A stretch of 47,324 nt of DNA. Origin: Lachnospiraceae bacterium (GTDB lineage: Bacteria; Bacillota; Clostridia; Lachnospirales; Lachnospiraceae). The stretch covers positions 1 through 47,324 of the forward strand of contig JALELZ010000019.1 in assembly GCA_022768465.1 (NCBI GenBank), given 5' to 3'. Below, one piece after another: positions 13,384 through 36,013 of this stretch. Position 1 is the first letter of the stretch, and each line of letters begins with the position of its first letter. Position numbers and translations under genes: made by a program. The notes below the pieces were generated by a model that did not search any database, was not told the DNA's origin, and saw only the letters and a list, made by a program, of their open reading frames with translations.

Positions 13384-13437
13384 TTCGTTTAATATAATAT
13401 GTTACGGCATTATTTATATGATGTAGGGGGGAGTATT

Positions 13438-13818
13438 ATGCAGGAAGAACACAGCGAGTCAAGAGAGGATTATCTTGAGTCTATAATAATGCTTAAGAGA
13501 GAAAAGGGTGCTGTCAGAAGCATTGACATTGCAGAGCATTTTAATTACTCAAGACCAAGCATAAGCCGTGCTATGAGTATTCTTCGAAGCGACGGCATGA
13601 TAACTATGGACAAAAACGGTTATATTGAGCTTACCAATGAGGGACAAAAGGTCGCAAATGCAGTATATGAGCGACACAATATCCTTATTTCATTCCTGAG
13701 CCTTTTGGGGATCAGTGATAAGACTGCAGAAGCCGATGCCTGCCGTATTGAGCATGTGCTCAGCCAGGAAAGCATTAACCGCATTGAGGAATTTGTAAAT
13801 AAGAATAAGGAGAAATAA
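13438..13818 (+). CDS. DtxR/MntR-family metal-dependent transcriptional regulator
   Basis: A 126-aa DNA-binding protein of the short (MntR/IdeR-like, no SH3) type. Residues about 5-70 form the winged helix: SREDYLESI, then RSIDIAEHFNYSRPSISRAM as the helix-turn-helix, then GYIELTNEGQKVA. The rest is the dimerisation and metal-binding region (ERHNILISFLSLLGI, ADACRIEHVLSQESINRIEEF) with His and Glu residues usable as metal ligands. ATG 13438 has AGGGGGGAG just upstream; an in-frame ATG at 13399 lacks one. The stop overlaps the ribU start (TAATG). Family members usually control Mn or Fe uptake; pairing with a vitamin transporter makes the ligand here uncertain. It may also act on the divergent mgtE region. 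Confidence 0.85.
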   Translation: MQEEHSESREDYLESIIMLKREKGAVRSIDIAEHFNYSRPSISRAMSILRSDGMITMDKNGYIELTNEGQKVANAVYERHNILISFLSLLGISDKTAEADACRIEHVLSQESINRIEEFVNKNKEK

Positions 13819-14507
13819 TGCAGGCAGAAAATACTATTAATGCCAATTGTTCAGAGGATGAAGCAGCCTCAAATAAGTCAAATGATACAAAAGCAGCAGT
13901 GCATGAAACCGGAAGACACAGCATGCACAATGCAGTTGTTGCGGGAATGCTTTCGGCAGTAGCTTTTATACTGATGTTTATTGAGGTACCGGTACCTATG
14001 CTGATACCTTCGTTTATAAAGCTTGACATTTCAGATCTTCCGGCACTCTTGGGATCCTTTGCCTTAGGCCCGATATACGGAGTCGTTATAAGCTTTCTTA
14101 AGAACCTGCTTATAATCCTTATTAAGGGAACAGGCAGTGCATATGTGGGCGAGCTCAGTAATTTTATTTTGGGAGCAGCATTTACATTTACAGCCGGCGT
14201 TATATATCATAAGCAGAAGAACTATAAAAGAGCAGTCAAGGGAGCTGTTATCGGTGCACTTATTATGGCACTTATCAGCGTAGTGACAAACTATTATGTT
14301 GTATATCCTGCCTATGAGAAGTTTTTCGGACTTCCTATGAATGTTATAGTAGGCATGTATCAGGCTATATTTCCGGCGGCAGACAGCCTTATAAAATGTC
14401 TCATTATTTTCAATGTGCCGTTTACATTTATAAAGGGAATGATCGATGTAGGGATCTGTTTCCTTATATATAAGCCGCTTTCACCGATACTTCACGGGAG
14501 AAAGTAA
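13818..14507 (+). CDS. ribU: ECF transporter substrate-binding subunit, probable riboflavin transporter RibU
   Basis: Membrane S component that captures the vitamin and works with an EcfA/EcfA'/EcfT module encoded elsewhere. About six membrane segments start near residue 37. The RibU hallmark region is EVPVPMLIPSFIKLDISDLPALLG, which includes the KLDxSDLPA pattern; GPIYGVVISFLKN follows. The first 35 residues are a polar Asn/Ser/Glu-rich extension that is longer than usual. Length 229 aa. Translation is coupled to the MntR-type gene by a 1-bp overlap. No FMN riboswitch is seen upstream. A strong terminator closes the unit. Confidence 0.82.
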   Translation: MQAENTINANCSEDEAASNKSNDTKAAVHETGRHSMHNAVVAGMLSAVAFILMFIEVPVPMLIPSFIKLDISDLPALLGSFALGPIYGVVISFLKNLLIILIKGTGSAYVGELSNFILGAAFTFTAGVIYHKQKNYKRAVKGAVIGALIMALISVVTNYYVVYPAYEKFFGLPMNVIVGMYQAIFPAADSLIKCLIIFNVPFTFIKGMIDVGICFLIYKPLSPILHGRK

Positions 14508-14551
14508 TATTAAAATTAATAAATCAAGGTCTCAAATCGGGACGAAATCAG

Positions 14552-14587
14552 GAGCCTTCTGCAGAAAAACTGCGGCAGGCTCTTTTT
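14552..14587 (+). terminator. Terminator of mntR-ribU
   Basis: GAGCC (14552-14556) with GGCTC (14578-14582), inner CTGCAG/CTGCGG pairing, an A-rich loop, then TTTTT. A classic intrinsic terminator 45 bp after ribU. Confidence 0.9.
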
Positions 14588-14696
14588 GTGGTAGATTTAC
14601 AATCTAAGTGCAAGAACTAAAAGAATTAATAATAGCAGCTTAAATGAAGAGCACAGGCTTTTAATGAAAAACAGAGAATTCTTTTCTAAAAGACTG

Positions 14697-14725
14697 TTGA
14701 CAAAACAGTAACGGGGGAGTATTAT
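14697..14725 (+). promoter_or_regulatory. Sigma-A promoter of cysK
   Basis: TTGACA at 14697-14702, a 17-bp spacer, TATTAT at 14720-14725. Transcription would start near 14732, giving a leader of about 235 nt before the cysK ATG. The -10 box abuts the dyad at 14728-14748. Confidence 0.8.
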
Positions 14726-14727
14726 CA

Positions 14728-14748
14728 TACCAATATGGTTGGTTGGTA
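14728..14748. promoter_or_regulatory. Dyad operator at the cysK promoter, probable Rrf2 site
   Basis: TACCAA (14728-14733) and TTGGTA (14743-14748) are exact inverted arms around a 9-bp spacer that contains further GGTTGG. It begins 3 bp after the -10 box, where a bound repressor would block initiation. A related TACC...GGTA dyad with CTACCAAC lies in the promoter of the adjacent Rrf2 regulator (15969-15985), which suggests that regulator binds both. Binding is inferred, not shown. Confidence 0.55.
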
Positions 14749-14766
14749 GTGCAAAAGGAGGAAGAA

Positions 14767-14802
14767 ATGCACAACTTTTTTAAACGATGTTGTCACAACT
14801 GA
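14767..14802 (+). CDS. Leader peptide with tandem cysteine codons (MHNFFKRCCHN)
   Basis: An 11-codon ORF preceded by AAAAGGAGG at a good distance, ending in TGA at 14800-14802. Codons 8 and 9 are TGT TGT, immediately before the stop. It lies in the 5' leader of cysK, 164 bp before the cysteine synthase start. TTGTC/GACAA (14790-14805) forms a hairpin over the end of the ORF. The layout is that of an amino-acid-sensing leader: ribosomes short of Cys-tRNA would pause on the Cys pair and alter folding of the RNA that follows. Cys-rich leader peptides of this kind are known before cysteine genes in actinobacteria; I know of none described for this gene in this group. The function is inferred from position and codons only. 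Confidence 0.6.
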   Translation: MHNFFKRCCHN

Positions 14803-14832
14803 CAATGATGATCGATAAAGACAGAAGTAGTT

Positions 14833-14894
14833 TTACAACTTGTAAGTATTAACATAGAATAGATACATAGGACTGCAAAAGGCAGTCAATGTTA
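14833..14894 (+). other. Secondary structures in the cysK leader
   Basis: TTACAACTTGTAA (14833-14845) is a perfect palindrome. TAACAT (14849-14854) with ATGTTA (14889-14894) encloses GACTGC (14871-14876) with GCAGTC (14882-14887), a stable two-part hairpin. No T-tract follows, so if it acts in attenuation it would not be a standard terminator; it could control translation or RNA stability. The rest of 14588-14966 holds no other gene that I can support. Confidence 0.45.
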
Positions 14895-14966
14895 TAAAAA
14901 GAACAAAGAGAGCAATAATAGTAAACTCAACAAAAAACTTAGATATAACAAAGGGAGATTTCAGTC

Positions 14967-15899
14967 ATGGCAAAGATTTATACAGCAGCAGATCAGTTAG
15001 TAGGACATACACCGCTTCTTGAGCTTACAAATACAGAAAAGAAATACGGGCTTAAGGCAAAGATACTTGCAAAGCTGGAATATCTTAATCCTGCAGGATC
15101 GGTTAAGGACAGAGTTGCAAAGGCTATACTTGACGATGCAGAGGCAAAGGGCATCCTTAAAGCTGATTCAGTAATAATAGAGCCTACCTCAGGCAATACA
15201 GGAATCGGACTTGCTTCTGTGGCAGCTGCAAGAGGATATCGCATTATCATAGTTATGCCTGAGACAATGTCTGTTGAACGCAGACAGCTTATAAAGGCAT
15301 ACGGCGCAGAGCTTGTTCTTTCAGACGGCGCAAAGGGAATGACCGGTGCTATCAAGAAGGCAGAAGAGCTTAATAAGGAAATTCCTAACAGCTTTATCGC
15401 AGGACAGTTTGTTAACCCTGCAAACCCTAAGGCTCATTATGAGACAACAGGACCTGAGATCTGGGAGGATACAGACGGAAAGGTTGACTATTTCGTTGCC
15501 GGAATCGGTACAGGCGGAACAATTACAGGTGTAAGCCATTATCTTAAGTCAAAGAATCCTGATATAAAGGTAGCAGGAATTGAGCCTGCAACTTCAGCTG
15601 TTCTTTCAACAGGAGTTGCCGGAGCGCATAAGATCCAGGGTATTGGTGCAGGATTTGTGCCTGAGGTCCTTGATACAAAGGCTTATGATGAGATAATTGC
15701 AGTTGGCAATGATGAGGCATTTGCAGCAGGCAAGGAATTCGGCAGAACAGAGGGCGTACTTGTTGGTATTTCATCAGGTGCTGCTTTATATGCCGCTATT
15801 GAGATCGCAAAGAGACCTGAAGCAGAAGGCAAGACTATTGTAGTGCTTCTTCCTGATACAGGAGACAGATACCTTTCAACACCACTTTTCGCAGACTGA
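14967..15899 (+). CDS. cysK: Cysteine synthase A (O-acetylserine sulfhydrylase)
   Basis: PLP enzyme that makes cysteine from O-acetylserine and sulfide. [11 protein letters not shown] carries the PLP lysine (about residue 44), [10 protein letters not shown] binds the substrate carboxylate, GTGGTITG is the phosphate loop and GISSGAA lies near the C-terminus. Length 310 aa, the CysK norm. AAAGGGAG precedes the ATG. It has its own promoter, operator and tandem-Cys leader, and its own terminator. In Bacillus subtilis CysK also binds CymR as a co-regulator; the Rrf2 gene next door makes that arrangement possible here. Confidence 0.95.
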
Positions 15900-15925
15900 T
15901 CAATACTTAAATATATAACTGTTAT

Positions 15926-15965
15926 AAGACCCGGGAATTATAGCCAGGGTCTTTCGTTTGTTTTA
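15926..15965 (+). terminator. Terminator of cysK
   Basis: AAGACCC (15926-15932) pairs with GGGTCTT (15947-15953), followed by the T-rich stretch TTTCGTTTGTTTT. It overlaps the start of the promoter of the next gene. Confidence 0.82.
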
Positions 15966-15991
15966 CTCTACCAACAAAGGGGGTATATACA
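15962..15991 (+). promoter_or_regulatory. Probable promoter and operator of the Rrf2 gene
   Basis: TTTACT (15962-15967) and TATACA (15986-15991), 18 bp apart, or TATATA (15984-15989) at 16 bp. The spacer holds TACC-N9-GGTA (15969-15985) and the octamer CTACCAAC, also found in reverse at the cysK operator. This suggests autoregulation by the Rrf2 protein. Confidence 0.45.
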
Positions 15992-16078
15992 ATAAATCGC
16001 TGTTGTGGTAAGCTACATAAGACAGAGCTAATAATAAAATTTGTAAATGACATTATAGATAGAACGGAGTAATTATAA

Positions 16079-16510
16079 ATGGCAATAGTATCAACAAAGG
16101 GCAGATATGCAATCAGAGTATTGCTTGATCTTGCAGAACACAGAAACGGCGCATACATTCCGATGAAGGAAGTAGCAGAAAGACAGGATATATCACTTAA
16201 ATATCTTGAGAAGATACTTCCGGTGCTTGCAAAAAATAACCTTATAAAGGGAGTACACGGAAAAGGCGGCGGCTATATGCTGACAAGAGAGCCTGAGGAT
16301 TACAAGATAGGAGAGATATTAAGACTTACAGAGGGAGATATTGCTCCGGTGGCATGCTTACAGCCGGGAGCGGAGCCTTGCGAAAAGGCGTCAGAATGCA
16401 GGACACTTCCTATGTGGAGCAAATTCAATGATATCATAAATGAGTATTTTGACGGCATTACATTAAGAGATCTCATGAAAACGAATGGCGGAAATGAGTA
16501 TATAATCTGA
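16079..16510 (+). CDS. Rrf2-family transcriptional regulator (CymR/IscR type)
   Basis: 143-aa winged-helix regulator. The N-terminus STKGRYAIRVLLDLAEH is the Rrf2 signature. The helix-turn-helix is about residues 25-50 (KEVAERQDISLKYLEKIL) and the wing is VHGKGGGYMLTRE. After the domain come three cysteines, C-x7-C-x5-C (CLQPGAEPCEKASEC). This resembles the Fe-S ligand triad of IscR, although the first spacing differs from the classic C-x5-C-x5-C. CymR of Bacillus lacks such a triad. The neighbour cysK and the shared operator half-sites argue for control of cysteine or Fe-S metabolism. ACGGAG upstream fits the ATG. Confidence 0.88.
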   Translation: MAIVSTKGRYAIRVLLDLAEHRNGAYIPMKEVAERQDISLKYLEKILPVLAKNNLIKGVHGKGGGYMLTREPEDYKIGEILRLTEGDIAPVACLQPGAEPCEKASECRTLPMWSKFNDIINEYFDGITLRDLMKTNGGNEYII

Positions 16511-35565: not shown

Positions 35566-35649
35566 TGCGGAGAAAGGGACTTGAACCCTCACGCCCTAAC
35601 GGGCACAAGATCCTTAGTCTTGCTCGTCTGCCAATTCCGACATCTCCGC
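35566..35649 (-). tRNA. tRNA-Leu (anticodon AAG), copy 1
   Basis: 84-nt type II tRNA. Acceptor GCGGAGA/TCTCCGC with discriminator A, D arm GGAATTGGCAGACGA, anticodon stem CAAGA/TCTTG with loop CTAAGGA (anticodon AAG), long variable arm TGCCCGTTAGGGCG, and T arm GAGGGTTCAAGTCCCTT. CCA is not encoded. It has its own promoter and terminator. It is near-identical to the gene at 35930-36013. Confidence 0.95.
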
Positions 35650-35659
35650 AACGAAGAAT

Positions 35660-35688
35660 ATACTAACATATTTATCATGAATGCGCAA
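35660..35688 (-). promoter_or_regulatory. Promoter of tRNA-Leu unit 1
   Basis: Minus strand: TTGCGC (35688-35683), 17-bp spacer, TAGTAT (35665-35660), 10 bp before the tRNA. The same TTGCG-type -35 precedes unit 2. Confidence 0.65.
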
Positions 35689-35768
35689 GCAAAAATTTAC
35701 AAATATTTGAAAAACTTTTCACACCAATGAAAATTCAATTAGTACTCATTAGGGACATAGATATAGGA

Positions 35769-35792
35769 ATATAGGGATACAGAACAAAAAAG
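35769..35792 (+). repeat. Dispersed TATAGG element, copy 3
   Basis: ATATAGGG-ATACAGAA-CAAAAAAG, preceded by another ATATAGGA unit (35761-35768). It runs into the terminator of tRNA-Leu unit 2. Confidence 0.55.
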
Positions 35793-35816
35793 ACCGGCGA
35801 TCACTCACCAGTCTTT
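35785..35816 (-). terminator. Terminator of tRNA-Leu unit 2
   Basis: AAAGACCGG (35789-35797) pairs with CCAGTCTTT (35808-35816), one mismatch. In the minus direction a T-tract follows. Confidence 0.8.
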
Positions 35817-35818
35817 GA

Positions 35819-35902
35819 TGCAGAGAAAGGGACTTGAACCCTCATGATATTGCTATCACACGGACCTGAACCGTGCGCGTCTGCCAATTCCGCCATCTCT
35901 GC
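35819..35902 (-). tRNA. tRNA-Leu (anticodon CAG)
   Basis: 84-nt type II tRNA. Acceptor GCAGAGA/TCTCTGC, anticodon stem CACGG/CCGTG with loop TTCAGGT (anticodon CAG, reads CUG). Its variable arm (TGATAGCAATATCATG) differs from that of its neighbours, while the D and T arms are the same. Cotranscribed with the copy at 35930 (27-bp gap). Confidence 0.95.
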
Positions 35903-35929
35903 GTATAAAATAATTACAGATACAATAAA

Positions 35930-36013
35930 TGCGGAGGAAGGGACTTGAACCCTCACGCCCTAACGGGCACAAGATCCTTAGTCTTGCTCGTCTGCCAATT
36001 CCGACACCTCCGC
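35930..36013 (-). tRNA. tRNA-Leu (anticodon AAG), copy 2
   Basis: Same as copy 1 except the last acceptor pair: A-T in copy 1 is G-C here (GCGGAGG/CCTCCGC), a compensatory double change. First gene of a two-tRNA unit that ends at 35816-35785. Confidence 0.95.

Follow-up and report, generated by a model that had tools for sequence, protein, structure and literature searches.

The cysK gene of a Lachnospiraceae bacterium is preceded by an open reading frame of only 11 codons that contains two adjacent cysteine codons, and this raises the question of whether the frame is a leader peptide through which cysK responds to the supply of cysteine and, if so, which of its codons are decisive. We addressed this question in a stretch of 47,324 nucleotides, referred to below as the window, and in the cysK loci of other Clostridia. 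The initial annotation of this DNA had reported a strong promoter and, behind it, a short frame with an excellent ribosome binding site and the adjacent codons TGT TGT. All of this was confirmed (Table 1). The frame, read as ATG CAC AAC TTT TTT AAA CGA TGT TGT CAC AAC TGA, lies with its ribosome-binding site between the promoter and cysK, the position expected of a leader-peptide attenuator. Directly 5′ of the cysK leader, at 13399-14507, the window encodes an MntR-like regulator and a protein resembling the S component of an ECF transporter, both scoring below curated cut-offs.

Table 1. Features of the cysK locus (positions are those of the window)
Feature	Position	Strand	Remarks
Sigma-70-type promoter TTGACA-17 nt-TATTAT	14697..14725	+	11 of 12 consensus positions
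Dyad TACCAA-N9-TTGGTA	14728..14748	+	Found by eye; spans the presumed transcription start
Shine-Dalgarno sequence AGGAGG of the leader ORF	14756..14761	+	Five bases 5′ of the ATG
Leader ORF MHNFFKRCCHN, 11 codons	ATG 14767 to TGA 14802	+	Belongs to the CGA-TGT leader class
Core codon pair CGA-TGT (Arg-Cys)	14785..14790	+	Recurring unit; CGA at 14785-14787
Second Cys codon TGT	14791..14793	+	Tandem TGT TGT at 14788-14793
Predicted hairpin over the Cys codons (CGAUGUUGUC...GACAAUGAUGAUCG)	14785..14814	+	Motif pairing probability 0.94
Predicted 6-bp hairpin GACTGC-AAAAG-GCAGTC	14871..14887	+	Without T tract
cysK, cysteine synthase A	14967..15899	+	Presumed target; TIGR01139, above cut-off
Rrf2-family regulator, IscR/CymR-like	16079..16510	+	Below both equivalog cut-offs

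A search with the leader DNA in the 25 genomes of the genus, the host included, returned nothing outside the host but short chance-like stretches, the best of them at E 0.011, and the cysK leaders of the same genus differ from that of the window. Among nine same-genus cysK loci, a Shine-Dalgarno-led ORF with CGA-TGT was present in one (L015), where the ORF is longer and holds four consecutive Cys codons in addition to the CGA-TGT pair. Long Cys runs were also noticed in the leader ORFs of L285, L321 and L015 (CCCCC before a MetY-like gene; RCCCRCLYCC and MCCCC before cysK). The comparison was extended to Clostridia beyond the genus by taking the best 80 of at least 577 cysK loci, further loci and 140 fetched stretches, which together gave 303 unique leaders. 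Left out of the counts were loci L031-L050, which were the matches of the DNA search, duplicates, recognised from their final 120 nt (60 nt in the case of metY), and loci without an identified start, such as L228, L232 and L257. The Shine-Dalgarno pattern and the limits on ORF length vary slightly between the counts given below, and each count stands for its own analysis.

An in-frame CGA-Cys pair within a Shine-Dalgarno-led short ORF was found in 35 of the 303 cysK leaders, far above the mean of 1.45 and the maximum of 4 obtained in 40 shuffles. The other arginine codons preceded Cys in fewer of these leaders (CGC 11, AGG 4, AGA 3, CGT 2 and CGG 1), and CGA-Cys is present in 35 of the 49 leaders having an Arg-Cys short ORF; CGA-Trp did not occur and CGA-Met occurred in four leaders. 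CGA is rare among Arg codons (loci 6.4%, window 5.2%), and TGT accounts for 28% of Cys codons in the loci and 37% in the window. In the first 232 leaders there were 34 Shine-Dalgarno-led ORFs with Arg-Cys, where shuffles gave 3.3 on average, and 28 with CGATGT, where they gave 0.35 (20 shuffles). Leaders fetched after the motif had been discovered gave 4 positives out of 34, all of them CGATGT, and another later set contained Arg-Cys or Cys-Cys ORFs in 5 of 37 leaders, three with CGATGT. The frame is conserved together with the codons: 35 of the 40 CGATGT words within 200 nt of cysK are in frame with a Shine-Dalgarno-led ORF. When both strands of the collected loci (2,007,902 bases, the two strands taken together) were scanned for Shine-Dalgarno-led short ORFs with in-frame CGATGT(T/C)G, there were 34 matches, of which 29 lie before cysK (the window locus being counted three times), three before metY and two without an assigned gene.

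The peptides of this class include MRNFKAFFRCC, MRNAKTFFRC, MFLLKERC, MILLQERC, MLYAVRC, MIIVKHERC and MKYPLPLRCRRC. Most of the 35 leaders continue after CGA-TGT with TGA, TGC, TGT, TGG or CGN, and often the class has a single Cys codon followed by TGA. The initial annotation had taken the tandem Cys pair as the key unit. Cys-Cys does occur in short ORFs of 18 of the 303 leaders (shuffle mean 2.27), but the recurring unit is CGA-TGT, so the proposal of a Cys-codon leader peptide controlling cysK gained support from the comparative excess while its emphasis on tandem Cys did not. The refuting condition set by the initial annotation, that homologous leaders keep dyad and promoter but not the ORF or its Cys codons, tells in part against the proposal: most cysK leaders are without the motif, CGA-Cys being present in 35 of the 303 and in one of the nine same-genus loci. 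Among the 171 leaders with no long ORF immediately 5′ there are 26 carriers, and among the 128 others nine. In a quickly built tree of 175 CysK proteins, 28 of them from carriers, the trait changes at least 19 times, the carriers being partly related and the counts therefore representing non-independent events. One CGA-TGT leader stands in a record titled Fibrobacter sp. (L106), before a cysK 78% identical to that of the window; this locus may reflect a transfer or a mis-binned contig.

Similar results were obtained for metY, which encodes O-acetylhomoserine sulfhydrylase (TIGR01326) and is followed by cysK in many loci. Among 79 metY leaders, eight of which belong to MetY-like proteins of less than 60% identity (three of these from the host), CGA-Met was present in 34 and CGA-Cys in 9, with a shuffle mean of 0.38 in either case, and 34 of the 42 CGAATG words near metY are in frame with a Shine-Dalgarno-led ORF. 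Ten leaders contain both CGA-Met and CGA-Cys, as in CGA ATG TGT CGA TGT TGA of L060. Seven of them (L059, L060, L120, L134, L271, L284 and L292) head metY and then cysK on the same strand; as for the remaining three, metY and cysK are on opposite strands in L124, L360 has no cysK in the piece collected and L221 is a cysK leader. The nearest CysK relatives of the window on the quick tree are those of L271 and L059, in which cysK lies 3′ of metY and the leader holds CGA-TGT as well as CGA-ATG. The host is without a close metY (best match 40% identity), and the window leader has CGA-TGT but no CGA-ATG. Across the intergenic short ORFs of the collected loci, the codon after CGA was Met in 33 and Cys in 31 of 108 cases; the other Arg codons were without a comparable bias in the same scan (AGA-Met 1 of 142, CGC-Cys 8 of 71).

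The intergenic scan also returned two CGA-TGG ORFs, one of which, MFILSKRWWRLNSQDCII, is directly 5′ of trpB (L132), the other (L087) being cut by the contig end. Of 20 lower-scoring trpB paralogues that were fetched, the two closest to the L132 protein carry CGA-TGG in their leaders (L456, MFILDKRW.., and L457, MFLLTRRW..), as does one of the other 18 (L454). By eye, the CGA-TGG leaders of L132, L087, L456 and L457 were seen to lie 3′ of a T-box-like word (GGTGGCACCGCGG) and a terminator-like hairpin; Rfam gave no T-box match before the trpB leaders in the five trpB loci searched. Predictions for trp, his and ilv genes were written down before searching. CGA-His was absent from 30 hisG loci and CGA-Trp from the 30 top-scoring trpB loci, and in 30 ilvB loci an Ile or Val codon came next in 5 of 24 cases of CGA, counted without regard to leader status, which is no excess, so that the predictions gained no support from these sets; the regions scanned were entire loci with about 1.5 kb of flanking DNA, in which the operon head is often missing. 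At the level of sequence, the codon presumed to be sensed thus depends on the gene that follows, being a Cys codon before cysK, a Met codon before metY and a Trp codon before one kind of trpB. We suggest, tentatively, that CGA-X may be a modular amino-acid sensor in which an inosine-read CGA in the P site serves to make the decoding of X hypersensitive to its charged tRNA. Evolution would swap X between Cys, Met and Trp to suit the gene behind the leader, and metY-cysK pairs would even have CGA-Met and CGA-Cys stacked before them.

The metY leaders bear on a first alternative, in which the nascent peptide stalls the ribosome on a small molecule (cysteine, methionine or S-adenosylmethionine) and codon choice is secondary. 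Many of these leaders (L060, L347, L368, L371 and others) share the long peptide ..L(V/L)RxN(F/W/Y)R(F/N)GRM.., with synonymous variation at the other codons, and subfamilies of the cysK peptides share the ends FFRC, ERC or LRCRRC, which speaks for this alternative. However, in the leaders whose peptide contains GRM, mostly as ..(F/W)R(F/N)GRM.., the Arg before Met is encoded by CGA in 22 of 22 cases while the earlier Arg codons are variable, and a pure peptide effect would need neither this nor the preference for CGA among the Arg-Cys cysK leaders. The cysK peptides, moreover, share little besides Arg-Cys. We consider arrest by the nascent peptide unlikely.

A less probable alternative is that CGAUGU(YG) or CGAAUG is recognised as RNA, by pairing or by a protein, and that the ORF merely contains this word. 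Conservation in the 35 cysK leaders does continue past the Cys codon, with YG following it (G at +7 in 33 of 35), C at +9 in 24 and C at +11 in 21, even beyond the stop, and the 11 stops that come immediately after CGA-TGT are all TGA. Codon sensing does not account for the conserved YG or for C at +9 and +11, and since AUG, UGU and UGG all contain UG, a shared RNA word could underlie the Cys, Met and Trp versions. When a ribosome footprint was placed over the motif in the folded leaders of the relatives, 10 of 35 loci had their cysK ribosome-binding site freed by more than 0.1, compared with 3 of 34 for control windows (Wilcoxon P 0.025), and this result counts for an RNA word. Against it stand the frame of the CGATGT words described above, 35 of 40 of which are read as codons of a Shine-Dalgarno-led ORF, and the change of the codon after CGA with the target gene, and we regard recognition of the word as RNA as improbable. 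An interpretation of CGATGTYG as an RNA-polymerase pause site was dropped, as the G at -10 was by eye not conserved.

The initial annotation had placed RNA structures before cysK and expected stalling on the Cys codons to change the downstream fold. Two hairpins were predicted in the window leader (Table 1), but the leader as a whole folds no better than its shuffles (z -0.64; 51 of 200 equally good), and blocking by the footprint leaves the cysK ribosome-binding site of the window unchanged, at 0.61 before and after. The annotated lack of a T-tract terminator was reproduced by a terminator scan of 14300-16300, which found none in the leader; the sole terminator-like site was inside cysK on the opposite strand. 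Hairpin-based attenuation in the window was rejected because of the shuffle-level folding and the missing terminator. For base pairing between the motif and the cysK ribosome-binding site, P was 0.0001 in a permutation over 27 loci, a value confounded by base composition; with composition controls the same pairing of the Cys-codon segment gave combined Z values of -1.9 and -1.0 in 39 leaders. Since it is weak under these controls, universal pairing of this segment with the cysK ribosome-binding site is not claimed, and strong direct pairing of the motif with the site was seen in a few loci, namely L103, L127 and L083. With shuffle-level folding, overall weakness of this pairing and no footprint effect in the window, no supporting RNA structure was found for the proposed change of fold on stalling. 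Rfam gave no match above the gathering score at the window leader and no leader family at 20 cysK, 14 metY or other and 5 trpB loci; its matches elsewhere in the loci searched were tRNAs and one glycine riboswitch. In L063, L083 and L114 we observed, by eye, a longer Cys-rich first ORF (e.g. MQKIFYIGMICCDARCENRVNCVIPI), a terminator-like hairpin and, 3′ of both, the CGA-TGT ORF, an arrangement that may represent two successive cysteine sensors.

The dyad 3′ of the window promoter could be the operator of the Rrf2/CymR-like regulator (gene at 16079), and CCTA...TAGG-like dyads were seen by eye 3′ of the promoter in several relatives. That the ORF of the window alone is a relic or an accident, with cysK under promoter control by this downstream-encoded regulator, would fit the dyad over the start site and the Rrf2 gene, the absence of leader-like DNA in the genus search and the several relatives that by eye keep promoter and dyad without the ORF, but it is very unlikely, because the window matches the class in the exact codon pair, Shine-Dalgarno sequence, frame and position, the two controls can coexist, and other relatives (L056 and L094, by eye) have promoter, dyad and ORF together.

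The reading that we prefer is that the ORF is probably a translated leader peptide reporting cysteine supply to cysK, with CGA-TGT as its core and CGA as a sensitiser. The tRNA genes of the host bear on the role of CGA. The 46 that were found (assembly 96% complete) include tRNA-Arg with the anticodons ACG, CCG, CCU and UCU and tRNA-Cys with GCA only. No tRNA-Arg with UCG is among them, which presumably leaves the inosine form of the ACG tRNA to read CGA. By the usual decoding rules, TGT would be read by tRNA-Cys GCA through a G-U wobble pair. Three of the tRNA genes of the window are consecutive tRNA-Leu genes on the minus strand (35566-36013; anticodons AAG, CAG and AAG), and the anticodon AAG is unusual in bacteria.

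In the Salmonella his leader, the accessible text of one study reports, CGA is poorly decoded and boosts de-attenuation when paired with other Arg codons (PMC4046918), and in another, likewise as far as its accessible text goes, CGA-CGA is a slow codon pair (PMC11805395). We infer that the clostridial ORFs are translated and that CGA, being read poorly by the inosine tRNA-Arg, acts on the codon that follows it. While the inosine tRNA occupies the P site, the TGT that follows would depend strongly on charged tRNA-Cys for its decoding, so that one Cys codon would be enough. In a cysteine shortage the ribosome would wait at TGT and cysK expression would rise. The output might then run through a freed cysK ribosome-binding site, through RNA stability or through Rho.

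Cys leader peptides are already known, and the present class shares features with several of them. In Actinobacteria, polycysteine leader ORFs precede cys operons, according to the part of PMC1262725 that was accessible, and the experimental work on them by Canestrari 2020 (cited in PMC13236596) describes them in its title as leaderless. As far as these sources go, they and the clostridial leaders have in common a short ORF before cysteine genes, Cys codons near the stop and no obvious terminator. The window leader, with its two adjacent Cys codons near the stop, resembles the polycysteine ORFs even in a part that does not recur in the CGA class. Unlike the actinobacterial ORFs as described there, with their Cys runs and, by that title, no leader, the clostridial ones are Shine-Dalgarno-led, often have one Cys codon behind CGA and exist in Met and Trp versions. 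The uORFC-8-2 motif before cysS of Rhodobacterales (PMC8632094, in its accessible part) also places tandem Cys codons in the leader ORF of a cysteine-related gene, but it has a terminator stem, its Cys codons are usually codons 14-15, and it belongs to alphaproteobacteria and to a different gene.

Classical his and trp leader-peptide attenuators sense charged tRNA through runs of end-product codons and depend on a terminator. The clostridial leaders resemble them in the sensing of charged tRNA by end-product codons, but in them one codon can be enough if it stands behind CGA, and the window yielded no terminator. Charging of the cognate tRNA is also sensed, in Bacillota leaders, by T-box riboswitches; these need no ORF, and Rfam gave no T-box match in the window or in any of the searched loci. 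A 2010 survey, in the portion accessible, knew of almost no leader-peptide control in Bacillota beyond its own his finding (PMC2965389), and our literature search, which covered few subscription papers, found nothing on a CGA-primed leader or on clostridial cysK or metY leaders. Within that coverage the CGA-primed form in Clostridia, with its Met and Trp versions, appears to be new.

The placing of CGA before the sensed codon occurs in many gut and rumen bacteria and looks like a simple amino-acid gauge. If this is true, cells use defects in the decoding of codon pairs as sensors, and one codon behind a fixed rare codon would serve to sense Cys, Met or Trp. The CGA pair would then be a sequence signature for finding further cases, and in gut and rumen Clostridia it would connect inosine decoding with tRNA charging and sulfur metabolism in a way that can be tested directly.
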